A DNA stretch of 64,000 nt. Source: Phycisphaerales bacterium Planc_01. GTDB taxonomy: Bacteria; Planctomycetota; Phycisphaerae; Sedimentisphaerales; Anaerobacaceae. Positions within the stretch are counted from its first letter, which is position 1, and the number at the start of each line of letters is the position of its first letter. The DNA lies in NCBI GenBank assembly GCA_001603075.1, contig LVBB01000148.1, positions 62,001 through 126,000 on the forward strand. Reading direction: 5' to 3'. The position numbers and the translations under genes are program-made. This document shows positions 8,249-62,502 of this stretch, in pieces. The notes under the pieces were generated by a model, which was not told the origin of the DNA, ran no database searches, and saw nothing but the letters and a program-made list of their open reading frames with translations.

Positions 8249-10474
8249 ATGAAGGTGTTGATGCTCTGGGTTCTCTCGATTCTCCTGGCAGGCCTCCCAC
8301 CGTCTCTTGGGGCTGCGTCGCCTCGTTTGGAGTACGAAAGCTCCTGGATCGGCAACTCCTATCCCGGCGGGCAGCGCTGGGTGCCACAGGATATCGATCA
8401 CATCTTCGTCACCGCCGACGGCACGGTCTATTCGAACGTCCACTGGGAGGAAGGCGGCGGCAACGTGACCGCCTTCAAGGACGGCGAAGTGCTCGGTCCG
8501 GCCCGTCGGACCCATGGCTGGGGCAATCAGGCCGGCTACGCCGTGGCTGCCAACGACAGGTATCTGTACATCGCCGGTCGCATGAACAACGAGGGCGGCG
8601 GCCTGAAGGACCCGGACACATGGCCGCCCAAGGGCTTCGATTGGATCGGTGTGTCACGGCGGCATCGCAGCGATATCCAGAAAGGCGTGCCCTTTCCCGG
8701 CGGGAAGGGAGGCAAAGGGGACACGCTGCCCCGCGCCTTTCTGGTCGTCGATGAAGTGCCTGCCGGTTCGGAGCCAGGCGAACGTCGTCTGCACAATATC
8801 ACAGGTCTGTGGGCCACGAAGGAACGGCTCTATGTGAGTTGTCCCTATGACGGCACGATCAAGGTCTTTGACGCCGAATCCATGGCGCAACTCGACGAAT
8901 GGTCGGTGGAGCATCCGGGGGTGCTGGCGATGGACCGTGGCGGCGTGCTCTGGACGCTGCTCGAACCGGGCGGCGCATCGCCTCAGGAGATCATCGCGCT
9001 GAACCCTCGGACCGGCGAGAGAACCGGACCAACGATCCGCCTGCAGGAAGGGGGCGACGCAAAGGCTATATGCTTCGCCGCCGACGGGTGTTTGCTCGTG
9101 GCCGACGCCGGGCCGGCGCAGCAGATCCACATCTATGACTTCTCGTCCGGCGAATCGCCCCGATTGGCCGGTACCTTTGGCGCTCACGGCGGCATCTATG
9201 CCCACCCCGCCGGCCGCTTCGGTGATCTTCGCTTCAATATGCCCGCGGGGGTGGCAAGCGATGCCGAGGGCAATATCTACGTCGCGCATCGCGGCAGTAC
9301 GGGGGGAGGCAGCACGGTACTCGAAAGCTATACCGCCAAAGGCAGACTGAACTGGCGTCTCCTCGGCCTGCACTTCGTCGATATGGCCGACGTGGATCCG
9401 GAGTCGGATACCGAGGTGTTCACGAAGGAAGAGCGTTTCATGATGGACTACTCGAAGCCGCCGGGACACCAGTGGAGCTACGAGGGATACACCGTGCATC
9501 CGTTCCGCTACCCTCAGGACCCGCGTCTGCACATCTGGTCGGCCGGGGCATGGGTACGCCGCATAGACGGAAGACGGTTTCTGTTCGTCAACGACATGAA
9601 CGCTCAGCACCTGCAGGTATACCGTTTCGACGCATATTCCGGGGATGAAACGGCGATTCCCTCCGGCTTGTTCGCAGGCCGCCCTATTCGCAACGGCAAG
9701 GGCTGGCCGCCGCATCAGCCCGGAGAGGGCGAATGGATCTGGCGCGATCGAGACGGAAATGGCGCCTTCGATCCGAGGGAATACGACCGCAACGACGGCC
9801 GGGACGCGCCTTCGTACCAGGGCTGGTGGGTGGACGATACCGGAACGGTCTGGCAGGCCACGCAGACCAACGGCATCCGCCGCTTTCGTATGCAGGGTCT
9901 CGATGAACACGGCAATCCGGTCTGGGACTATGCATCCATGACCGTCTTTGACCATCCGCGCGAATTCAAAGAGGTTAGACGCCTTCGATACGACCCGGCC
10001 AAGGATGTCATGGTTCTCGGCGGCACCGCCGCCGAAAACACCAATCAGCACTGGAAACCCATGGGACCAGTCATCGCACGATACGACAACTGGAGCGGAC
10101 CGGACCGCGCGCTCCGCTGGAAGATCGTCACCCCCTACCAGAAGGGATCGACCGGCCATCATTCCTGCGAACCGATGGGTTTCGACGTTGCCGGCGAGTA
10201 CCTCTTCGTCCCATACACAGGCGCATCCCGCGAGATGGGCTTCAGCACAGGCCATATCGAGGTGTTTCGACTCAACGACGGTGGCAGCGTGGGTCACATG
10301 GAGCCTGCCGAGGAAATCGGCGAGATCGGTCTGCAGGATATCCGCGAATGCCTGCGAGCCTACCGCCGCGCCAACGGCGAATACCTTGTCTTTCTGGAGG
10401 AGGATTACAGGGCCAAAATTCTGCTCTACCGCTGGATGCCACAAGCGATGCAGGCAGTGGGCGCAGGAGGATGA
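8249..10474 (+). CDS. Secreted beta-propeller-like protein
   Basis: A 741-aa protein. The ATG at 8249 lies 9 bases after AAAGGG, and upstream in-frame starts are less well placed. It begins with a clean signal peptide (MKVLMLWVLSILLAGLPPSLGA). The body shows repeated blade-like patterns: ITGLWATKERLYVSCPYDG, AMDRGGVLWTL, AICFAADGCLLVADAG and GVASDAEGNIYVAH. These resemble NHL/SMP-30 propellers. An Asp-rich DRDGNGAFDPREYD segment resembles a calcium-binding EF-hand-type loop. No enzyme motif is recognised. It follows the glycosidase-like gene by 230 bases and probably belongs to the same extracellular programme. Confidence 0.75.
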   Translation: MKVLMLWVLSILLAGLPPSLGAASPRLEYESSWIGNSYPGGQRWVPQDIDHIFVTADGTVYSNVHWEEGGGNVTAFKDGEVLGPARRTHGWGNQAGYAVAANDRYLYIAGRMNNEGGGLKDPDTWPPKGFDWIGVSRRHRSDIQKGVPFPGGKGGKGDTLPRAFLVVDEVPAGSEPGERRLHNITGLWATKERLYVSCPYDGTIKVFDAESMAQLDEWSVEHPGVLAMDRGGVLWTLLEPGGASPQEIIALNPRTGERTGPTIRLQEGGDAKAICFAADGCLLVADAGPAQQIHIYDFSSGESPRLAGTFGAHGGIYAHPAGRFGDLRFNMPAGVASDAEGNIYVAHRGSTGGGSTVLESYTAKGRLNWRLLGLHFVDMADVDPESDTEVFTKEERFMMDYSKPPGHQWSYEGYTVHPFRYPQDPRLHIWSAGAWVRRIDGRRFLFVNDMNAQHLQVYRFDAYSGDETAIPSGLFAGRPIRNGKGWPPHQPGEGEWIWRDRDGNGAFDPREYDRNDGRDAPSYQGWWVDDTGTVWQATQTNGIRRFRMQGLDEHGNPVWDYASMTVFDHPREFKEVRRLRYDPAKDVMVLGGTAAENTNQHWKPMGPVIARYDNWSGPDRALRWKIVTPYQKGSTGHHSCEPMGFDVAGEYLFVPYTGASREMGFSTGHIEVFRLNDGGSVGHMEPAEEIGEIGLQDIRECLRAYRRANGEYLVFLEEDYRAKILLYRWMPQAMQAVGAGG

Positions 10475-49629: not shown

Positions 49630-52509
49630 ATGTGTAGAAGACCGATCCATCTGGTTGCCTGCGTCCTGCTGCTGGGTTTGGCCGGCAGGGTCTGCGCCAA
49701 TCTGATGGCATACTGGAATCTTGACGAGGGTGCAGGCACGGTGGTCCGAGACCGCTCCGGAAACGGCAACCATGGCACGGTCCATGGGGCGACCTGGACC
49801 CAAGGCAGATACAAGGGCGCCCTGGAGTTCAACGGCGTAGACAACTATGTTGAAGTGCCCGCGTCCGAGAGTCTTGCGATCGAGGGCCACGTGACAATCG
49901 CGGCGTGGATCCGGTGGCTCAACGCCGGCGACGTCTGGCTGTGTATCATGGCGAACGGCCAGCAGAACGGACCATGGGAGAACTACGGCATGTTCGTCAA
50001 CCGAGACTCGCGCTTCGTCTACTTCACCCTTTCGTTGGACGGCGGCCATGTGGTGCAACAGACGCCGAACAATATGACAGAACCGGACCAATGGCAGCAT
50101 GTCTGCGCCTCCTGGGATGGCGCTGCTGCCAGGGTCTATGTGGACGGAGAGATGAGGCTGGAACAGGCCCAGGCCGGATCGCTCGTTCCTCCGAGGCTCC
50201 CGCTTCGCATCGGGCATCGCACCGGCAGCTCCCATTACTATCACGGGATGATCGACGATGTCGCCGTCTTCGACCACGCACTGACGGAGCAGGAAGTCCA
50301 GAGAATTATGGAGGGCCTGGCACCGGCTGAACTGGCCTCCGACCCTCGACCAGAGGATGAGGCGGTCGATGTGCCGCGGGACGAAGTTCTCCGTTGGGCC
50401 CCCGGCGAGTTCGCCGCGACCCATGACGTGTACTTCGGGACCTCGTTTGACGACGTCAACGATGCCAGCCGAAGCGATCCGAGGGGTACGCTGGTCAGCC
50501 AGGGCCAAACCGCCGCCGGCTACGATCCGGCCGGCCTTCTGGACTTCGGCACGACCTACCACTGGCGAATCGACGAGGTCAACGCCCCGCCGAGCAATAC
50601 GATCTACACGGGCGAAGTCTGGAGTTTTACCACCGAGCCATTCGCCTATCCGGTGACCAACGTCCTGGCCAGCAGCAACGGTGTTTCCGAGGCGGCAGCA
50701 GGCCCGCAGAACACGGTCAACGGCTCCGGCTTGAACGCCGCCGATCAGCACTCGACCAACAGTGCGGACATGTGGCTGGCCAGACCCGGCGACGAACCGC
50801 TCTACATCCAGTATGAGTTCGACCGCGTCTACAAGCTCCACCAGATGCTCGTCTGGAACTACAACGTCCAGTTTGAGCTGCTCCTGGGCTTCGGGCTCAA
50901 AGACGTAACCGTCGAGCACTCCATAGACGCAGAGGACTGGACCGTATTGGGCGACGTCGAACTCGCCAGGGCCACTGCAAGCGCCACGTACGAGGCCAAC
51001 ACGACCGTCGCGTTTGACGGTGTGGCCGCCCGATACGTCCGTCTGACCGTCAACAGCGGCTGGGGCACGATGGGGCAGCTCGGACTCAGCGAGGTCCGGT
51101 TCCTTTTCGTCCCGGCGCAGCCCCGCGAGCCCAAGCCGGCCGACGGCGACGCGGACGTGGAGGTCGGCAGCTCGCTGAGCTGGCGAGCCGGTCGTGACGC
51201 GATCTCGCATGAGGTCTACCTCGGTGAGGATGCCGACGGCCTGGCCCTGGCCGGTACGGTCGCCGGCACGGCCTTCGCTCCGGGCAATCTGGAGTTCGGC
51301 AGCACCTATTACTGGAAGGTCGATGCGATCAACCCGGCGGATGCGAACCCGGTCTGGAGCAGCGCGACGTGGAGCTTCTCGACGCAGGAGTACGCATGGA
51401 TCGACGGGTTCGAGACCTACGACGACGACGTCGATGCCGGCACGGCGATCTTCGACACATGGCTCGACGGCTGGGTCAACAACACCGGCTCGACGGTGGG
51501 GTATCTCAACTCGCCGTTCGCCGAGCAGACCATCGTTCGCACCGGCCGCCAGTCGATGCCGTTGCAGTACGACAACACGAACTCGCCGTTCTACTCGGAG
51601 GCCGAGAGAGCGTTCGATACATCCCAGAACTGGACCGGCAACGGAGCCGATACGCTGGTGCTGTACGTGCACGGCAATGCTCCCGGTTTCCTGGAAACCG
51701 CTGACGGCATCATCATGAACGCCATCGGCGCCGACATCTGGGACAGCGCCGACCAGTTCCGCTTCGCATACAGAAGCCTCAGCGGCGACGGCTCGATCGT
51801 GGTGCGGGTCGACAGCGTGGTTCGCAGCCACGAATGGGCGAAGGCCGGCGTGATGATCCGCGAAACGCTGGAGCCCGGGTCCAGGCACGCCTTCGTGGCG
51901 GTGACGCCGACACCATCGCACGGGATTTCGTTCCAGCGTCGCCCGGTCGCCGCCGCGGCCAGCGCCAATACGGACGTGGCCGACATCGCGATCCCGCACT
52001 GGATCCGACTGACCCGCACCGGCAACGTCTTCACGGCGCAACAGTCGGAAGATGGCGTGAACTGGGTCGAAATCGCGGTCAGTCCGGCCCTGGAGATTCC
52101 GATGGCCGCCAACGTCCATATCGGTTTGGCGCTGACCAGCCACGACACAGCGATCTCGACGGCGGCGGAGTTCTCGAACCTGACGATCACCGGCGCCGCA
52201 ACAGGCGACTGGCAGACGGCGGAGATCGGCGCGGTTCAGCCTGTGGGAAATTCGGCCGAGTCGATGTACGTTCACGTTGAAGACGCCACGGGCCAGAGCG
52301 CGACGGTCGTGAGTGCGGATGCGGCAATCACGGCTCGCCCGTCATGGCAGCAGTGGAGAATCCCGTACGGTTCTTTGGCGGGCGTGAACCTGAGCCGGGT
52401 TCAGAAAGTGTTCATCGGCGTGGGCAGCAAGACCAATCCGACGGCCGGCGGCAAGGGCACGGTCTACGTGGACGACGTCGGCTACGGCCGCCCCGCCGAG
52501 ACCGAGTGA
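49630..52509 (+). CDS. Large secreted LamG/discoidin modular protein
   Basis: A 959-aa protein. GGAGG lies 7 bases before the ATG. Signal peptide: LVACVLLLGLAGRVCA. Residues about 25-220 form a LamG/concanavalin-like domain (AYWNLDEGAGTVVRDRSGNGNHG...GMIDDVAVFDHALTEQEV). An FN3-like module follows (THDVYFGTSFDDV...TYHWRIDEV), then a discoidin-like domain (YEFDRVYKLHQMLVWNYNVQ), a second FN3-like module, and C-terminal beta domains (FETYDDDVDAG, SGDGSIVVRVDSV, KGTVYVDDVGYG). No catalytic motif; probably a surface or exported glycan-binding protein. Its module order overlaps that of the 698-3442 protein. Confidence 0.87.
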   Translation: MCRRPIHLVACVLLLGLAGRVCANLMAYWNLDEGAGTVVRDRSGNGNHGTVHGATWTQGRYKGALEFNGVDNYVEVPASESLAIEGHVTIAAWIRWLNAGDVWLCIMANGQQNGPWENYGMFVNRDSRFVYFTLSLDGGHVVQQTPNNMTEPDQWQHVCASWDGAAARVYVDGEMRLEQAQAGSLVPPRLPLRIGHRTGSSHYYHGMIDDVAVFDHALTEQEVQRIMEGLAPAELASDPRPEDEAVDVPRDEVLRWAPGEFAATHDVYFGTSFDDVNDASRSDPRGTLVSQGQTAAGYDPAGLLDFGTTYHWRIDEVNAPPSNTIYTGEVWSFTTEPFAYPVTNVLASSNGVSEAAAGPQNTVNGSGLNAADQHSTNSADMWLARPGDEPLYIQYEFDRVYKLHQMLVWNYNVQFELLLGFGLKDVTVEHSIDAEDWTVLGDVELARATASATYEANTTVAFDGVAARYVRLTVNSGWGTMGQLGLSEVRFLFVPAQPREPKPADGDADVEVGSSLSWRAGRDAISHEVYLGEDADGLALAGTVAGTAFAPGNLEFGSTYYWKVDAINPADANPVWSSATWSFSTQEYAWIDGFETYDDDVDAGTAIFDTWLDGWVNNTGSTVGYLNSPFAEQTIVRTGRQSMPLQYDNTNSPFYSEAERAFDTSQNWTGNGADTLVLYVHGNAPGFLETADGIIMNAIGADIWDSADQFRFAYRSLSGDGSIVVRVDSVVRSHEWAKAGVMIRETLEPGSRHAFVAVTPTPSHGISFQRRPVAAAASANTDVADIAIPHWIRLTRTGNVFTAQQSEDGVNWVEIAVSPALEIPMAANVHIGLALTSHDTAISTAAEFSNLTITGAATGDWQTAEIGAVQPVGNSAESMYVHVEDATGQSATVVSADAAITARPSWQQWRIPYGSLAGVNLSRVQKVFIGVGSKTNPTAGGKGTVYVDDVGYGRPAETE

Positions 52510-52559
52510 CCGGCGGCTGTGCCAATGGCCGAAGCGATCCACCTGTGAACGTGGCAGGA

Positions 52560-52584
52560 GGGGCTGCAAGCCGCTTGCAGCCCC
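52560..52584 (+). terminator. Intrinsic-type terminator hairpin
   Basis: GGGGCTGCAAG (52560-52570), loop CCG, and CTTGCAGCCCC (52574-52584) form a perfect 11-bp stem, followed by TTCTGT. It lies 50 bases after the LamG/discoidin gene. The T-tract is weak. Confidence 0.65.
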
Positions 52585-52733
52585 TTCTGTCATACGACGA
52601 GACGGGAATGGGCCGCCGGGCACCGGATCGAATCCGCCAGTCGATTGCGGTTGTCAGGCGGGCGAAATCGTGGTATGTATGGATTTGTCGGGAGAAACGA
52701 ACGCGTTGTCGATCGGTCGATAAGGAGATGATG

Positions 52734-53087
52734 ATGCCGTTGATTCAGCTTGCGACCTCGTGCGATCTGTCGGACCGCAGCAAGAAGGAGTCCATCGCCA
52801 AGGGCCTGTCGCGTCTGGCGGCCGAAGGGACGGGCAAGCCGGAGCAATACGTCATGGCGTGCGTTCAGGACAAGGCGACCATGACGATGGCGGGCGAGAG
52901 CGGCCCCTGCGCTCTGGTGGCCGTCAAGGGGATCGGGGGACTGAGTCCGTCGGTCAATCAGAACCTCACCAGCCGGATCTGCCAGATGCTCCACGAGGAG
53001 CTGGCGATCCCGACAGACCGCATCTACGTGACATTCGAGGAGCTGGCCGCCACCGCCTGGGGCTGGGACCGTCACACCTTCGGGTAA
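52734..53087 (+). CDS. MIF/tautomerase-superfamily protein
   Basis: A 117-residue protein, normal length for the family. I chose the third of three consecutive ATGs (52734), 6 bases after AAGGAG, because the encoded MPLIQL puts the catalytic proline directly after Met, as the family requires. KPEQYVMACVQDKATMTMAG and IPTDRIYVTFEELAATAWGWDRHTFG match macrophage-migration-inhibitory-factor-like tautomerases. It probably tautomerises keto/enol acids; the natural substrate is unknown. It is convergent with the methyltransferase gene, stops 2 bases apart. Confidence 0.9.
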   Translation: MPLIQLATSCDLSDRSKKESIAKGLSRLAAEGTGKPEQYVMACVQDKATMTMAGESGPCALVAVKGIGGLSPSVNQNLTSRICQMLHEELAIPTDRIYVTFEELAATAWGWDRHTFG

Positions 53088-56265: not shown

Positions 56266-56538
56266 ATGAGCAATGAGGCACCCGAAGACTTCCTGACGCC
56301 GGCGGCATTGAAGCAGGCGATGAAGGCATTCAAGAAACGTCTGAAGCTGACGCGGCTGGACGCCGAGTCCACGCTGGGCGGAGGGCCTTTCAGCGGGGGC
56401 CGCAGTTGCGATATCGTGGCGATCCAGCCGCCCAACCAATACCCCCGCCAGGTCTGGGACAAACTCGTCGAGATGGGCAAGCTCCGGCACGCCGGCGGCG
56501 GCCTCTATGAGTTGCGTCAGGACCCCAACGTGCGTTGA
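56266..56538 (+). CDS. Hypothetical 90-aa protein
   Basis: GGAG lies 6 bases before the ATG. It is a soluble basic protein: helical N-terminus (TPAALKQAMKAFKKRLKLTRLDAES), then GGGPFSGGRS and a QYPRQVWDKLVEMGKLRHAGGGLYEL end that resembles a small winged helix. I think similar short proteins occur in other Planctomycetota but have no function to assign. Confidence 0.6.
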   Translation: MSNEAPEDFLTPAALKQAMKAFKKRLKLTRLDAESTLGGGPFSGGRSCDIVAIQPPNQYPRQVWDKLVEMGKLRHAGGGLYELRQDPNVR

Positions 56539-56574: not shown

Positions 56575-58509
56575 TCACTCGGCCGCGCCGGGAGCAGGCT
56601 TTCTTACCTGCTGGTTGAACATCCGCAGCCGAACGGCGATCGCGCCGAGGGCCCACTCGATGTAGTGCAGGGAATGCGCGGGCTGGCGATGGCGCTCGAT
56701 CATCAGTCCGTATTGGGCGGCGTTGAGGAACTTGGCGATGACATGGGAGCTGATCTGCGTCGGATCGGCAGCCCAGACCTTCAACTGCTCGTACTGCCGG
56801 CGCAATCGTGCGCTGCCGCGTAGCTGTTCGGCGCTGAGGTAGTCGCCGGGGTTCAGGGCCAGTTGCAGACCCTTGAGGCACAGGATCAGCGGCTCGTAGT
56901 TGGCCCTCCTCTCCAGCCGGATGAACTTGTACTGCTGAATGTATGTCGTCGCCTGGGCCGGTGCCTTGTCGCCGATGTCGTCATGCCCGAGATACCAGTT
57001 GCGCCGGCTGCGTCGGGCGAAGACCAGTTCGTGGCCGAGGCGCTCCTGTGTGATCTCGTCGCGGCCCATGCGCGAGACCCACAGACCGCCCGGTTTGCGT
57101 TCGGAGCCCCCGCCCAGGGCCAGCAGACACTTGACGAACCCAATCGGCAGGACGTTCTGCTCCCCGATCCGGCTCTTGAACAGTTGGAGCGACAGATGCA
57201 GGCTGTGCGGACGGACCTGGAAGAAGCCGACCAGTTCGTGGATCAACTGGTTCATCAGCCAGGGATCGGATGTGGCCGGGCGCGACAGCTCGCCGGCGAT
57301 GCTCAGCCGTCCAGGCGCCAGTTCGAGGAAGCCCGAACTGCGCCGCCGCTGTCCGGAGCCGGTGTGGTCGTCGATATAGCCGCCCAGCTTCCAGCAGAGG
57401 ACATCGAGACAGAAATCGTAGAAATAGCGGAACCCGTCGTAGGCCGGATCGGACGCCCTGCTGGCGCTGCGTCGGGGCTCGACGGCGTCGGCCCCGAGGT
57501 TGCTCAGCTCCAGTTCGAAGCCAAGCGGCACCAGACCCGGCTGACGGTTCGAGCGAATGCGGCTGAGGTTGGCCTCGGCCACGCGTGGATCGAAAATACT
57601 CCGGGAGGCGCGGACGGCGTACTTGACGTAGTCGATCAAGTCGAACTTGTCGGGCGGCATCGTCAGGCCGCGTTCGACGATCCGTTCCACGTCGCTGCGG
57701 CTGGCGTTGACCATCTGCAAGGCGGCCAGCAGACTGACCGAGCGGGCAAAGTATCGCTCACTCGTCCGCAGGTGCTCGAGATCGAAACGGTGCCGGCTCT
57801 GGATCTGCTCGTCGAACTCGTTGAGCAGCACTTGCCGCAGGACCAGTGCCAGATAACTGCCCAGATACGGAGCGGCTGCCGGTTCGGTGAGGAGGTGCCG
57901 GATGCTGGGACGCGGACGGTCCAGCTCGCGTTCCAGATAGTAGTCGCTCATCGCCTCGCTGTGGTAGTGGCTCATCACCAGATCGCGTTCGGTCGTGCCC
58001 AGAAGTTCCCGCTGGGCCCGGCGCTCGATCTCAGCGTCGGCCGTCCGCTCGCCGGGACGCGTGTGCCTCTGAAGGAACCGTTCGATCCGTTTGCGGAGCC
58101 ACAGTTCGTGGATGAGGTTGACGTGAAAGCGGTCGCCGAAGTGTTTTCGCATCGACTCGGGTGTCACCAGAAAAGCCTGCGCCTCGACCTTGCCGTGCGC
58201 GGTGTAGATATGCACCGTCTCCCGCCGGTATCGCTTGCCCTCGTACCGGTCCACCTCGGCCATCGCCGAGCCGGGCACGTCATAGATGACCAGCCCTTCG
58301 ATCCGGGCGTCAGGCGTCTTGACGCCATAGTAGTAGACGTTATCCGGACTGACCCGACGATGCCCCGGCAGGAAGGCCGGCTCGGCAAAGAGTACCTTCT
58401 CGTCGATCTTCGAGGGCTTTCGCGTGAAGGCAATGCCGCTGACCGACTTGAAGATGCGACTGTCTCGCAGCGATCCATAGACGAAGAGATTGACTTTGCG
58501 TTTGGGCAT
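56575..58509 (-). CDS. GGCT/AIG2-like domain fused to a large domain of possible amidoligase type
   Basis: A 644-aa protein. Residues 1-115 are a gamma-glutamylcyclotransferase-like (AIG2) domain: LFVYGSLRDSRIF, then IEGLVIYDVP and VDRYEGKRYRRETV, including the acidic residue near the active site. The remaining 500 residues are unusual for a GGCT protein. GFELELSNLGADA (near 325) resembles the first motif of amidoligases, and RPHSLHLSLQL (near 430) could be their second motif. No membrane segments or signal peptide. A peptide-bond-forming domain joined to a glutamyl-cyclising domain is a plausible but unproven reading. Confidence 0.7.
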   Translation of the reverse strand: MPKRKVNLFVYGSLRDSRIFKSVSGIAFTRKPSKIDEKVLFAEPAFLPGHRRVSPDNVYYYGVKTPDARIEGLVIYDVPGSAMAEVDRYEGKRYRRETVHIYTAHGKVEAQAFLVTPESMRKHFGDRFHVNLIHELWLRKRIERFLQRHTRPGERTADAEIERRAQRELLGTTERDLVMSHYHSEAMSDYYLERELDRPRPSIRHLLTEPAAAPYLGSYLALVLRQVLLNEFDEQIQSRHRFDLEHLRTSERYFARSVSLLAALQMVNASRSDVERIVERGLTMPPDKFDLIDYVKYAVRASRSIFDPRVAEANLSRIRSNRQPGLVPLGFELELSNLGADAVEPRRSASRASDPAYDGFRYFYDFCLDVLCWKLGGYIDDHTGSGQRRRSSGFLELAPGRLSIAGELSRPATSDPWLMNQLIHELVGFFQVRPHSLHLSLQLFKSRIGEQNVLPIGFVKCLLALGGGSERKPGGLWVSRMGRDEITQERLGHELVFARRSRRNWYLGHDDIGDKAPAQATTYIQQYKFIRLERRANYEPLILCLKGLQLALNPGDYLSAEQLRGSARLRRQYEQLKVWAADPTQISSHVIAKFLNAAQYGLMIERHRQPAHSLHYIEWALGAIAVRLRMFNQQVRKPAPGAAE

Positions 58510-58549
58510 ATCCCGCCTGATTCATCGCGTCGGACTGCTTCGACTTCGG

Positions 58550-59293
58550 CTACGGGTCGCGCACGATGCGGCCCCGCAATCGCCAGAGCTCCCGAAAGGC
58601 CCGCAGGACGACGCGGAGACTGGCCCCGGTTTGCCGGCCGGCCGTGCGCGGATAGTGATGCACCCCCTTCTGCGTAATCGTATACCCTTTCCGTACGGCC
58701 CGCGCCAGGATCTCCGTATCGATCAGCGCCCCGGTGCTTTCCATCGTGATCCGATCGAAAAGGCTTCGCCGATACAGCTTGAAGGCGCAGTCCACATCGC
58801 GGACCTTCATTGAGAATACCAGGCCGGTGACCTTTGTCCAGAGCCATCCGTTGATCTTCCGCACGAGGTTGTCCCGCCGGTCGATCCGATAGCAACTGAC
58901 GATGTCGTAGTCGGCCATCAGAGGCAGCAGAGCCGGCATCTCGCCGATGTCGAACTGGCCGTCGCCGTCGGTATAGAAGACCAACTCCTTGCGCGCGGCG
59001 CGAAACCCCGACTGAAGGGCCGCGCCGTAGCCCCGATTACGCTCGTGGCGGATCACACGAACGCGGTCGTTGCCGGCGGCGATCTCATCGGCGATCCGCC
59101 CGGTCGCATCGACACTGCCGTCATCGACGATGATGACCTCGTAGTCGGCCCCCAGCCCTTCGAGCACGCGGATCGCCTGCTCAGCCACGCGACGGACGTT
59201 GTCCTGCTCGTTATAGCAGGGAAAGAACACCGAGATCGACACGGCCGATGGAGAAACGCCGTCGGGTGACACAGGGCTGTCCGCCTGGGCCAT
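58550..59293 (-). CDS. Glycosyltransferase family 2 (dolichol-phosphate-mannose-synthase-like)
   Basis: A 247-aa protein. ISVFFPCYNEQDNV, VIIVDDGSVDATG, ERNRGYGAALQSGFRAA and the D-x-D motif YTDGDGQFD are GT2 signatures; DVDCAFKLYRRSLFDRI and GVHHYPRTAGRQTGASLRV fit DPM1-like or undecaprenyl-phosphate glycosyltransferases. There is no membrane tail. It starts 3 bases after the large membrane protein gene ends, so the pair is probably one operon for a lipid-linked sugar donor and its acceptor enzyme. Confidence 0.92.
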   Translation of the reverse strand: MAQADSPVSPDGVSPSAVSISVFFPCYNEQDNVRRVAEQAIRVLEGLGADYEVIIVDDGSVDATGRIADEIAAGNDRVRVIRHERNRGYGAALQSGFRAARKELVFYTDGDGQFDIGEMPALLPLMADYDIVSCYRIDRRDNLVRKINGWLWTKVTGLVFSMKVRDVDCAFKLYRRSLFDRITMESTGALIDTEILARAVRKGYTITQKGVHHYPRTAGRQTGASLRVVLRAFRELWRLRGRIVRDP

Positions 59294-59296
59294 GGC

Positions 59297-62293
59297 TCAC
59301 CACCTCTTTCGATTGGAGATGGAGTCCCGTTCGGCCAGGTACTGCTGCATCTGTCGGGCATAGGTTTCGGACGCCTCGCGGTTGCCCTGAGCATCGGCCA
59401 GTTGCTTGAGCCGCACCATCGCCAGGCGCGCCGCTTCGAGGCGCAGGTTGTAACCGTGATGGCCGGCGTAGCTCGACTTGTTGGCCTCGAAATGCGTGGT
59501 GTACTCGACACAGATTTCGTCGACGCGAGGTCGCAGTTCCGCGAACTGCGCCGCGATCAGCAGCAGGTCGAGCATCGGCCCCGGCGACGGATCGAGGTGA
59601 AACGCCTTGATCAACATGTCGAGCCCCTGTTCCTTCTGGCCGCTCTCTCTGAGCACCAGCAGGTTTCGACCGACAGAGAAGTTGGCGGTGAACTCGTCGG
59701 GATAGGTCGTCTGACCGGTGAACATGCCGTCGAACAGCTTCTTGCCCTTCTCGGTTGAGACGTTGACGAACAGTTTCTGCTTGTTGTTGATGAAGACTAT
59801 CCGCCAGTTGGGGTCGTATTCCAGGCCGTAGACAAAACCTTTGTCGAACTGATTGGCCGGCATCAGGACCACCCAGACGTCGAACGTGTCGAGCTGCTCG
59901 GTGACCCACGCGCCGATCTCGCGGTACTCGGCGGCGGTCAGGTTGCGTCCTTCGTAGGCGGCCCTGCGTGCGGCCGGCCCGCCCGTGAGGATCTCCGTCC
60001 ACAGGTCGAACGTCCGGGTGTCGTAGGCCGCCTGGGCCCGACCGTCCATGAACAACTGCAGCGGCGTCCGCCCGGTCTCGGGATCGGGGTCCTGGCCCCA
60101 GGCGATGAACCCGCCTTCCGTCCAGTAGTTGAACATATTGCCGGAGAGCTTGTTCTCACGGATGAACTGGCAGGCGTAGAACGGCTTGGCGTCGGAGGCG
60201 GTCATTCGCATGAAGATGGACGTCAGCCTCGGATCGGCCGGCCAGTAGTCCAGGTAGATTTGCTTGAACCTCAGCCCCACCCACAGGCCGAATCCAAGGA
60301 CGGCGCCGGTCACGGCCAGCGCCGCCACCGGCCAGACCAACGCGACAGGCGGCAGACCAGCAGTTCCCTGCGAACGCTTGCGGTCGCGAGAGAAGACCGC
60401 CATCAGCGGAAAGCCCGCAAATGCCAGGAGCACTCCAAACGCCAGGAGCCAGAAACGAGGCTGGATTTGGCCGGCATGGCCCGGCACCGGCAGAAACAGC
60501 CAGGGCCAAAAGACCAAACGCCACAGTCCCAATACGACCAGCGCCGCCGCCATGCCGAGCAGGACCGTGCGGTCAACGGCCTCGCGAAGGCCGGAATCGG
60601 CCGGCTGGGCGGTGCCGCGACCCTTCGCCGTCGTCAGCACGAAGCCAACGATCCGCTGCACCAGCAACGCCAGCACGGGACAGGCGGCGAATGCGGCGAC
60701 GGGAATGAACCGGCGAGATCGGATCGCCATGTAGACCGTCAGTGCCGCCACGAGCAGCAAGGCGATGTCGATCCTCGGCCCCACGGTCGTATCATCGTCT
60801 GCGGCCCGCTTCCTTGGGGAACGCTCCGCCACCAAAGCACGCACGGACAGGACCGCCCACAGACACACAGCCAGCCAGAGAAGGACGTACATCACCAGGA
60901 ACGGAATCGCGGTGCCGACGGGATTGGCCCAGTCCAGCGCCCGATGCCATTCGTGCACGTCGCGCCATCGCTCGGCATGCTCGCTGACCGAGATGACGAA
61001 GGTGTGCGTCAGGTTGGTCAGGTGGAACGGATTGAACAGGACCATCGCAACGAACGCGACCGCCCCAGCCCCGACCGTGTGCAGCAGCGCCCGGCGTTCC
61101 AGGACGCGAATCGTCTTGTCCCTCGACGAGAGCACCACCGCCGCGAGCGCCACGGCCAGGACGAACATGCCCAGACAGGTCAAACGTCCGCCGGCCGCGT
61201 GGTCGGCGAAGATCTTCAGCACGCGCTCGTTCATCGTATTGGGCGGCGCCGGGAAGTAACGCACCAGCAGCAGCAGAAACACCACGCCCGTCGCCACGGC
61301 GTGCAGGGCCGTCACGGCAGCGTCGCTGATCCGCCGGTGGAAAACCGCCGCGACACTGCCGCCGGCAGCCAGCAGCAGGAACGCGACCATCCAGTCGTTT
61401 CCTGCGCTCGGCGCAACGGCGTGACGCTGCGGGAAATACTCGTTGGTCAGCTCGGCCAGGCGACCGAGAAACTGGTGCGTCAGGCCGTAGAGGACCATCC
61501 ACGTCAGGATGCTGTAGACCGCCACCAGCCAACGTCTCGGCAGTCGCACGATCAGGTGCCAGCCCACGAACGGGACCAGCACGATGAATGCGTAGATGTA
61601 CCCGCCGTGGACGTTGGACCAGAAGACAATCACCGGCACGATCAGCCAGACGTAGAGCGCGTTGCGGTGGCTCGTCAGCGCCAGGATCAGGATGAAAACC
61701 GCCACGAGAAGATTGGAGAAGCCGGCCGGACGAATATCGAAGAACGACCGGCCGATGAACAAAGCGAAGCCCGATGCCGCGGCCGCCGGCGCGGGGGCCA
61801 CGCCCATCAGTCGGGCGGTCAAGTAGATCGCAGCGACCGCCAGGAAGTAGACAGCGAACTTCCAGATCACCAAAGCGTTGAAACAGGGCTCCGCCGCCGA
61901 GCCCAGCATCGTCGTGAGCCGGTAGAAGATCACATGCGTCAGCCAGTTTTGGTTGATCCAGCCGGTCGGGTGCCATTTGCGGACGGTTTCGAGGCCCACC
62001 TTCTCGGTGATCCATCGGGCCCAGCCCGGCCAGGTCTCGACCTCGGCCTCCGTCGGGCCGGCGTCGTGGCTGTTGGCGCTGAATGGCTCGACCGTGTCCA
62101 CACCGTGGTTGACGAAGTGCCGCCCGCACGCCATCGCCACCCATGTGTCGCCGGCGGCCACCATGTGCGTGCAGGCGTGAAACGCGAAGATCAGCATCGC
62201 CAGCCAGCCGACTACCACCGACAAGCGGGAGAGCGTCGAGCGTCCCTGCGTCGTGAGCAATGTGCCTGCCTCGCCGGTCTGGTTTTCCGCCAT
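59297..62293 (-). CDS. Large multi-pass membrane protein, GT-C-like
   Basis: About 998 residues. The ATG at 62293 has GGAAAG 7 bases upstream; the earlier ATG at 62323 lacks one. About 12-14 hydrophobic segments occupy residues 20-660. The first periplasmic loop has HFVNHGVDTVEPFSANSHD and GWINQNWLTHVIFYR, patterns seen in large planctomycete and bacterial GT-C-type or O-antigen-ligase-like proteins. The C-terminal 330 residues are soluble, with TPR-like helices near the end. Pairing with the GT2 gene supports a glycosyl-transfer role at the membrane. The function is inferred. Confidence 0.75.
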   Translation of the reverse strand: MAENQTGEAGTLLTTQGRSTLSRLSVVVGWLAMLIFAFHACTHMVAAGDTWVAMACGRHFVNHGVDTVEPFSANSHDAGPTEAEVETWPGWARWITEKVGLETVRKWHPTGWINQNWLTHVIFYRLTTMLGSAAEPCFNALVIWKFAVYFLAVAAIYLTARLMGVAPAPAAAASGFALFIGRSFFDIRPAGFSNLLVAVFILILALTSHRNALYVWLIVPVIVFWSNVHGGYIYAFIVLVPFVGWHLIVRLPRRWLVAVYSILTWMVLYGLTHQFLGRLAELTNEYFPQRHAVAPSAGNDWMVAFLLLAAGGSVAAVFHRRISDAAVTALHAVATGVVFLLLLVRYFPAPPNTMNERVLKIFADHAAGGRLTCLGMFVLAVALAAVVLSSRDKTIRVLERRALLHTVGAGAVAFVAMVLFNPFHLTNLTHTFVISVSEHAERWRDVHEWHRALDWANPVGTAIPFLVMYVLLWLAVCLWAVLSVRALVAERSPRKRAADDDTTVGPRIDIALLLVAALTVYMAIRSRRFIPVAAFAACPVLALLVQRIVGFVLTTAKGRGTAQPADSGLREAVDRTVLLGMAAALVVLGLWRLVFWPWLFLPVPGHAGQIQPRFWLLAFGVLLAFAGFPLMAVFSRDRKRSQGTAGLPPVALVWPVAALAVTGAVLGFGLWVGLRFKQIYLDYWPADPRLTSIFMRMTASDAKPFYACQFIRENKLSGNMFNYWTEGGFIAWGQDPDPETGRTPLQLFMDGRAQAAYDTRTFDLWTEILTGGPAARRAAYEGRNLTAAEYREIGAWVTEQLDTFDVWVVLMPANQFDKGFVYGLEYDPNWRIVFINNKQKLFVNVSTEKGKKLFDGMFTGQTTYPDEFTANFSVGRNLLVLRESGQKEQGLDMLIKAFHLDPSPGPMLDLLLIAAQFAELRPRVDEICVEYTTHFEANKSSYAGHHGYNLRLEAARLAMVRLKQLADAQGNREASETYARQMQQYLAERDSISNRKRW

Positions 62294-62502
62294 TCGCCTA
62301 CTTTCCAACAGGTTTCGACTCATAATATCGCAGAAGGATACGTTCTTCTGCTTCTATCGTCAAGAACGGCCCCCCGGCTGTTGCCCTTTGTCGAAAACTC
62401 TGCGTGGACCGCGAATAGGGCCGTGGCGGCGCGTGCGACAGCCTTTGCCAGAGGACGCGATGCTCCAGCCCCCGCCGCTTGCCTATCGATGGGCGTGACG
62501 GC

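Follow-up and report, generated by a model that had tools for sequence, protein, structure and literature searches.

A planctomycete protein that joins a cyclotransferase domain to a predicted glutamine synthetase-like domain

The fusion gene and its cyclotransferase domain

We analysed a window of 64,000 nucleotides from Phycisphaerales bacterium Planc_01 (GCA_001603075.1, contig LVBB01000148.1, positions 62,001 to 126,000), which contains a gene for a 644-residue protein made of a gamma-glutamylcyclotransferase (GGCT)/AIG2 domain, a helical domain and a predicted glutamine synthetase (GS)-like domain. The open reading frame (ORF) spans positions 56575-58509 exactly, with 644 codons and an ATG start. 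An initial annotation of the window had placed an ORF here, which is real, and had given no strand; it lies on the minus strand. The plus strand over the same stretch holds a 604-residue ORF with a TTG start (56863-58677). The dN/dS values of the fusion gene against three relatives (about 0.07, 0.13 and 0.18) indicate purifying selection. The gene and the parts of its product are as follows:

56575..58509, minus strand: fusion protein of 644 residues, GGCT/AIG2 domain + helical domain + GS-like domain (ORF and full-length homologues)
58159..58488, minus strand: GGACT/AIG2 domain, residues 8-117 (Pfam PF06094, E 9.4e-12; structural match to 2g0q)
58468..58479, minus strand: Y11-G12-S13-L14, counterpart of the GGACT active-site loop Tyr7-Gly8-Thr9-Leu10, invariant in 41/41
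58240..58242, minus strand: Glu90, counterpart of the GGACT catalytic-site Glu82, invariant in 41/41
57556..58152, minus strand: helical domain, residues 120-318, not matched confidently to any family; invariant at 48 of 199 positions
56587..57555, minus strand: predicted GS-like, carboxylate-amine-ligase-type domain with C-terminal helices, residues 319-641 (both predicted structures and structural alignments)

Homologues were sought by scanning 84,980 species genomes of bacteria and archaea with a pattern-based method, which reaches close relatives only. It returned 49 loci, with best segments 56-97% identical. The counts out of 41 refer to alignment A1 of full-length proteins, in which the one encoded in the window is joined by 40 from the 49 loci. 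It excludes L001 (a near-duplicate), L041-L043, L048 and four fragments (L045-L047, L049). Alignment A3 covers residues 120-641 and consists of A1 plus L001, L041-L043 and L048 (46 rows).

The initial annotation saw a GGCT-like domain at the N-terminus, and this was borne out. In the Pfam search of the whole protein, GGACT (PF06094) alone exceeded its cut-off, scoring 46 bits against a curated cut-off of 22.8. The only Pfam matches of any strength (E <= 10) were GGACT and AIG2_2, and the NCBIfam search gave zero matches. PF06094 was matched by 40 of the 41 aligned members at the E <= 10 limit. The corresponding part of the structure model aligned to the Arabidopsis AIG2-like protein 2g0q in VIA with Z 14.2 (108 residues, 2.3 Å). 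The active site of GGACT, as described in PMC2954230, combines the Tyr7-Gly8-Thr9-Leu10 loop with the catalytic-site Glu82, and its counterparts Y11, G12, S13, L14 and E90 are kept in all members. Judged by profile and active-site residues, residues 8-117 form a genuine AIG2/GGACT cyclotransferase domain. It shares with GGACT and other AIG2-like gamma-glutamylamine cyclotransferases the above-threshold profile match, the YG[ST]L loop and the catalytic-site glutamate. The solved structures among the matches are mostly short proteins, whereas here the domain makes up the first 18% of a 644-residue chain.

Predicted fold and conserved residues of the C-terminal part

Two structure models were made, one of the full-length protein (model 1; mean predicted local distance difference test score, pLDDT, 79.5; predicted template modelling score, pTM, 0.74) and one of residues 120-641 alone (model 2; mean pLDDT 80.2, pTM 0.84). 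In VIA, model 1 matched Dop with Z 11.1 (256 residues, 4.4 Å, aligned to residues 325-644), PafA with Z 11.0 (255 residues, 4.7 Å), GshF with Z 10.7 (252 residues, 5.1 Å), 1tt4 with Z 10.6 and YbdK with Z 10.2 (about 244 residues, 4.9 Å), glutamine synthetase with Z 9.6 (239 residues, 4.8 Å), and GshA with Z 8.4 (262 residues, 4.7 Å). GS-superfamily chains on about residues 260-644 accounted for 29 of the 50 matches listed, the other 21 lying mainly on the GGCT part. Model 2 also had Dop on top (Z 12.1, 249 residues, 4.4 Å), with a bifunctional glutathione synthetase at 11.9, PafA at 11.5, the gamma-glutamylcysteine synthetase (gamma-GCS) of E. coli at 9.2 and glutamine synthetases at 9.1 or below. 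The top 26 of the 50 matches listed (Z 12.1 to 6.4) were all Dop, PafA, GshF, gamma-GCS or glutamine synthetase, and directly after them came the best unrelated chain among those matches, with Z 5.8. Top Z values of 7-8 are typical of models without a clear match; values of 11-12 are higher, though not overwhelming. In Foldseek searches of model 1, AIG2/GGCT chains led and were the sole two under E 0.001, while Dop (E 0.021, probability 0.99) and PafA (E 0.025-0.031, probability 0.97-0.99) were also retrieved. Against viral models, Foldseek returned for model 1 one protein named amidoligase (489 residues, E 3.1e-3, probability 0.69) in a loose superposition (root-mean-square deviation 24.9).

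The predicted strands lie at residues 329-335, 378-380, 394-397, 434-442, 498-504 and 521-531, and helices at 416-430 and 539-552. These six core strands, their order, the helices after strands 3 and 6 and the four C-terminal helices agree with the description of the carboxylate-amine ligase superfamily in PMC2588565. We accept a GS-like fold because of the gap to unrelated chains and because several groups of GS-type enzymes agree. Residues from about 325 to 641 are thus predicted to have the fold of glutamine synthetase, gamma-glutamylcysteine synthetase and Dop/PafA, which is the outcome sought by the structure comparison that the initial annotation had proposed.

According to the same source, strand 1 carries the motif GhExE (Ex[EH]), strands 2 and 3 carry acidic residues, strand 4 has [HD]x[NH] ([HQ]x[NH] in PafA) and strand 6 has Ex[RK]x2D ([QH]x4D in PafA). 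One arginine belongs to strand 5 and another to the loop that leads to it, and both strand 3 and strand 6 are followed by helices. Residues of the fusion protein were assigned to these motifs by means of the predicted strands rather than by superposition:

57508..57522, minus strand: GFELE, residues 330-334, GhExE motif on strand 1 (329-335); G, E and E in 41/41
57367..57372, minus strand: Asp380-Asp381, acids at strand 2 (378-380, low confidence in model 1); 41/41
57322..57324, minus strand: Glu396, acid on strand 3 (394-397); 41/41
57196..57207, minus strand: H435-S-L-H438 on strand 4 (434-442), within the second motif of the initial annotation; 41/41
57070..57072, minus strand: Arg480, candidate loop arginine before strand 5; 41/41
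57001..57003, minus strand: Arg503, candidate strand-5 arginine (498-504); 41/41
56917..56934, minus strand: Q526-Y-K528-F-I-R531 on strand 6 (521-531); Q, K and R in 41/41

The superfamily features of strand 1 (G330, E332, E334), of strands 2 and 3 (D380/D381, E396) and of strand 5 with its preceding loop (R503, R480) are therefore all found here, in the positions expected from PMC2588565. Phe529 had been considered as the ligand position on strand 6 and was dropped for Gln526, following the motif given there. G330, E332, E334, D380, D381, E396, H435, H438, R480, R503, Q526, K528 and R531 are identical in all 41 proteins, and the second position of GhExE is hydrophobic in 40 of them and threonine in one. 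The initial annotation had likened two motifs of this region to the metal-binding motifs of amidoligases and had called for their alignment in homologues. Both are present (residues 330-342 and 433-443) and conserved, with G330, E332, E334, H435 and H438 unchanged in every member.

When residues 120-644 were shuffled 2000 times, 6% of the shuffles contained a GhExE string by chance, and because of this frequency the string alone is weak evidence; the weight rests on invariance and fold. The chance that nine pre-named positions would all be invariant is about 1.5e-6, a value to be taken as a guide only, the positions having been picked in part after viewing the alignment. Invariant positions number 56 of 234 in residues 319-552, and the GS-like part has the highest mean conservation (0.81; GGCT part, 0.77).

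At the level of sequence profiles, Amidoligase_2 (PF12224) was unmatched at E <= 10 by the window protein and by any of the 41 members, in searches whose HMMER filters remove the majority of matches above 0.1. Neither GCS2 (PF04107) nor the Pup ligase/Dop family (PF03136) was matched by them, and profile comparison with both gave nil. Thoc2 (PF11732) was weakly matched in 23 of 41 members (best E 0.0014), and apart from this family, GGACT and AIG2_2, eight others turned up, none in more than two members; we take the Thoc2 matches to be chance matches to helices. The word amidoligase in the initial annotation thus appears apt for a fold and mechanism class, the GS-like carboxylate-amine ligases, and does not hold for the Amidoligase_2 Pfam family. 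With Dop and PafA the protein shares the predicted fold of residues 325-641 (Z 11-12 with most Dop chains and PafA 4bjr, about 250 residues, 4.3-4.7 Å), GhExE and a polar glutamine on strand 6; it differs in having no PF03136 match, no Pup partner that was found, and fused GGCT and helical domains. With YbdK/GCS2 and the gamma-glutamylcysteine synthetases GshA and GshF it has in common the fold (Z 8.2-11.9), GhExE and the acids on strands 2 and 3, whereas PF04107 is not matched, identity is about 10% and strand 6 reads QxKxxR instead of Ex[RK]x2D. Taken together, the models describe a divergent protein that would, as predicted, have its fold and the greater part of its catalytic frame in common with GS-type ligases and that we place in no named family. 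It probably works like the GS-type carboxylate-amine ligases. A GS-like part too divergent for the Pfam and NCBIfam models used suggests that the superfamily has unrecognised branches.

Distribution and genomic neighbourhood

The fusion is conserved as a single chain in much of one planctomycete order. Among the 49 locus records, 46 are titled Planctomycetota or its orders, and three (L041, L045, L046) uncultured bacterium. Within the window's order, 120 of 161 genomes gave a match: 108 to the whole model, 10 partial, and two (G373, G374) with short separate cyclotransferases only. Four of the partial matches start within three bases of a contig end. By family, the matches fall into f1 (82), f7 (36), f3 (one) and f6 (one), and the unmatched genomes listed include seven in f1 and three in f7, with 21 more not itemised. 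No fusion was found in families f2 (0 of 6 genomes), f4 (0 of 5) and f5 (0 of 6). In a first sample of the phylum, the fusion occurred in 6 of 294 genomes, all of this order and none outside. In a second, searched with the C-terminal profile at E <= 1, 14 of 392 genomes matched, seven of them with members of the fusion family and all seven of this order. The other seven matches were weak (E 5.6e-4 to 0.53); three that were inspected (L125, L126, L131) showed nothing GS-like by eye and were judged chance. The gene is lineage-specific and usually single-copy. An apparent natural split of the gene in L049, a metagenome-assembled genome record, after residue 149 proved to be a gap of 100 N at positions 8448-8547.

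The 50,697 phage records held no match, none was confirmed among viral contigs, and plasmid records had none. In the PHROG search there was a single match, to cyclotransferases (E 0.09). On these grounds we rejected the idea of phage cargo and, from the plasmid records, that of a plasmid gene. A defence role was likewise discarded, PADLOC giving no match.

Two genes upstream recur beside the fusion gene:

58550..59293, minus strand: family-2 glycosyltransferase (PF00535, E 2.2e-31), 40 nucleotides upstream of the fusion gene
59297..62323, minus strand: protein of 1008 residues, hydrophobic by eye, without Pfam or NCBIfam match, a conserved neighbour

Of the 44 loci with at least 900 nucleotides upstream (five of the 49 were too short for this count), 39 have the glycosyltransferase upstream and on the strand of the fusion gene, three of them about 1.2 kb away. 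Where the upstream sequence reaches 4500 nucleotides or more, 29 of 31 loci contain the 1008-residue protein as a neighbour of the fusion, in one case 4.3 kb away. It is a conserved gene of unknown function whose product is probably membrane-bound. Of 159 genomes of the order, 153 have a member of its family, among them genomes of f2, f4 and f5, in which no fusion was found, so that the link between the two is loose. Downstream, a NUDIX gene lies on the opposite strand in 22 of 43 loci. A 90-residue ORF, also downstream (56266-56538, plus strand), has no family match and homologues in only two of the 49 loci (L001, L002). Further away in the window, a frame of 247 residues on the plus strand (52344-53087) matches the MIF-type tautomerases over residues 142-246 (PF01187, E 3.4e-21).

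Known pathways were sought around the gene. No Pup-like ORF (35-170 residues) was conserved beside it in the locus search, the largest cluster covering 9 of 49 loci at a distance of about 4-6 kb, and the Pup ligase family was found in one of 159 genomes of the order; a Pup-conjugation system was therefore rejected. The one genome that bears the family has two adjacent Pup-ligase-family ORFs (L113:325-3392). GCS2 occurred in one of 41 genomes searched, with 0 matches in the window's own genome, and PxpA, one route of 5-oxoproline recycling, in 0 of 61. A glutathione cycle was rejected on these counts, which cover PxpA among the types of 5-oxoprolinase. A gene so frequent and so strongly conserved in two large families of the order points to a core function beyond the glutathione and Pup pathways tested.

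Proposed function and alternatives

We propose, with middling confidence, that the protein is a bifunctional enzyme, with a gamma-glutamyl-type amide ligase and a cyclotransferase in one chain. The ligase direction, the glutamyl substrate and the use of Mg-ATP are what we infer beyond the observations. The GS-like domain would bind Mg-ATP through GxExE, Asp380/381, Glu396, His438 and Gln526 and would phosphorylate a carboxylate, in the likeliest case the one at the gamma position of glutamate or a glutamyl compound. It would then join the acyl phosphate to an amine. In the GGACT domain, the YGSL loop would serve to recognise a gamma-glutamyl amide, and the domain would use Glu90 to cyclise the glutamyl group to 5-oxoproline, so that the amine is released. 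The protein could in this way both make gamma-glutamyl-type amides and free amines from such amides, a combination of synthesis and release that the initial annotation had suggested. The two activities might form a protect/deprotect pair or a turnover cycle. Butirosin BtrJ and BtrG reportedly offer a precedent for gamma-glutamyl protection. Only the neighbouring genes suggest a link to envelope glycan assembly. A bolder version, which we think quite improbable, is that of a new branch of GS/GCS/Pup-ligase enzymes in which one chain would both attach and take off a gamma-glutamyl mark of the isopeptide type, on targets such as lysine side chains, polyamines or the amine of an envelope glycan. 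Attachment would fall to the ligase domain, and removal as 5-oxoproline to the fused cyclotransferase; if true, one planctomycete order would possess a reversible conjugation system peculiar to it.

Several results speak against a ligase of the GS type paired with a cyclotransferase. The strand-4 motif is incomplete in comparison with PMC2588565: H438 is invariant, and its second position (440) is serine in 40 of 41 members and threonine in one. On strand 6, Q526 and K528 fit, and an arginine (Arg531) stands at the aspartate position in all 41. In hhalign comparisons of the C-terminal profile with five single relatives (two planctomycete Amidoligase_2 proteins among them, besides GCS2 and Pup-ligase proteins) probabilities stayed under 1%, the profile being of low diversity (Neff 2) and the comparators single proteins. 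The two structure models share their method and most of their alignment and are not independent. The region of strand 2 is poorly predicted in model 1, where blocks of residues 361-390 average 49-55 (70-85 in model 2). Even with model 1 the Foldseek matches to Dop and PafA lie above E 0.02, and with model 2 nothing fell under E 0.001, the sole GS chain among the 50 matches listed being at rank 45 with E 5. The lack of PxpA among the genomes searched counts on the same side.

The missing kinship at sequence level and the non-significant Foldseek result with model 2 would also suit the explanation that the fold match is an artefact of prediction and the C-terminal part an unrelated domain. We regard this as exceedingly improbable: both predictions lead to one and the same superfamily, from which unrelated chains are clearly set apart, and the published motif positions fall on the right strands (PMC2588565). 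The deviations at Ser440 and Arg531 from the motifs of that source, together with the extreme lineage restriction, would instead fit a relative without catalytic activity, one that regulates the cyclotransferase and binds a nucleotide or a glutamyl compound. Such a role seems unlikely to us in view of E332, E334, D380, D381, E396, H438, Q526, K528, R480 and R503, all of them invariant, and of a GS-like part that is the most conserved segment of the protein.

A catalytic domain might run in the other direction, as a Dop-like hydrolase or deamidase, in which case the protein would only break gamma-glutamyl or isopeptide bonds and the cyclotransferase would finish the product. The closest folds are indeed Dop chains (Z 11.1 and 12.1), and strand 6 begins with glutamine, as PafA-type proteins allow (PMC2588565). 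Those Z values are within 1 of GshF and PafA, which are ligases and align equally well, and the gene has neither a conserved Pup-like partner beside it nor a Pup ligase family common in its order. We consider this direction rather unlikely. The upstream genes raise a further alternative, that the ligase acts by amidation or aminoacylation on a sugar or lipid carrier, which the glycosyltransferase and the 1008-residue protein would make. The frequency with which both accompany the fusion favours it. The pairing is not obligatory, however, as the 1008-residue family is also present in f2, f4 and f5, and synteny among relatives may last without a common function; we hold this to be a long shot.

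The bifunctional reading has parallels in gene pairs elsewhere. The initial annotation mentioned a published linkage of amidoligases with this type of cyclotransferase, and it exists: in Firmicutes, a gene of a carboxylate-amine ligase family adjoins one for an Aig2-type cyclotransferase, as neighbours and not as a fusion (PMC2588565, section 6). In two further papers, amidoligase and AIG2 genes occur within one phage gene table (ORF23 and ORF29, PMC3890496), and both are listed as auxiliary genes of a planctomycete phage (PMC10945688). We inspected the amidoligase loci of four of 97 phage records. The amidoligase was a separate gene in all four; an annotated cyclotransferase gene was adjacent in two (Arthrobacter phage Laroye and Geobacillus phage GR1), and the other two had no annotated cyclotransferase. 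Compared with these Amidoligase_2 neighbourhoods, the functions would be paired alike, there as separate neighbouring genes and here in one chain, with PF12224 matched in 0 of 41 members and no such fusion in the phage records. We found no published report of such a fusion in a search that did not cover the 2009 comparative study of amidoligases, where it may be in print. A pairing known from gene neighbours thus appears as one conserved chain, which makes the proposed functional pairing testable with a single purified protein.

Other arrangements were met among the amidoligase loci. In Arthrobacter phage Laroye (L133:3195-5771), genes for a cyclotransferase, an amidoligase and a glutamine amidotransferase follow each other as three consecutive separate genes. 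A planctomycete record (L078:1261-3495, minus strand) carries a DEAD/ResIII helicase and an Amidoligase_2 domain in one open frame. In L077:976-3101, an Amidoligase_2 gene is followed by a stretch resembling Peptidase_C26/class-I glutamine amidotransferases, an arrangement close to the proteobacterial pairing described in PMC2588565.

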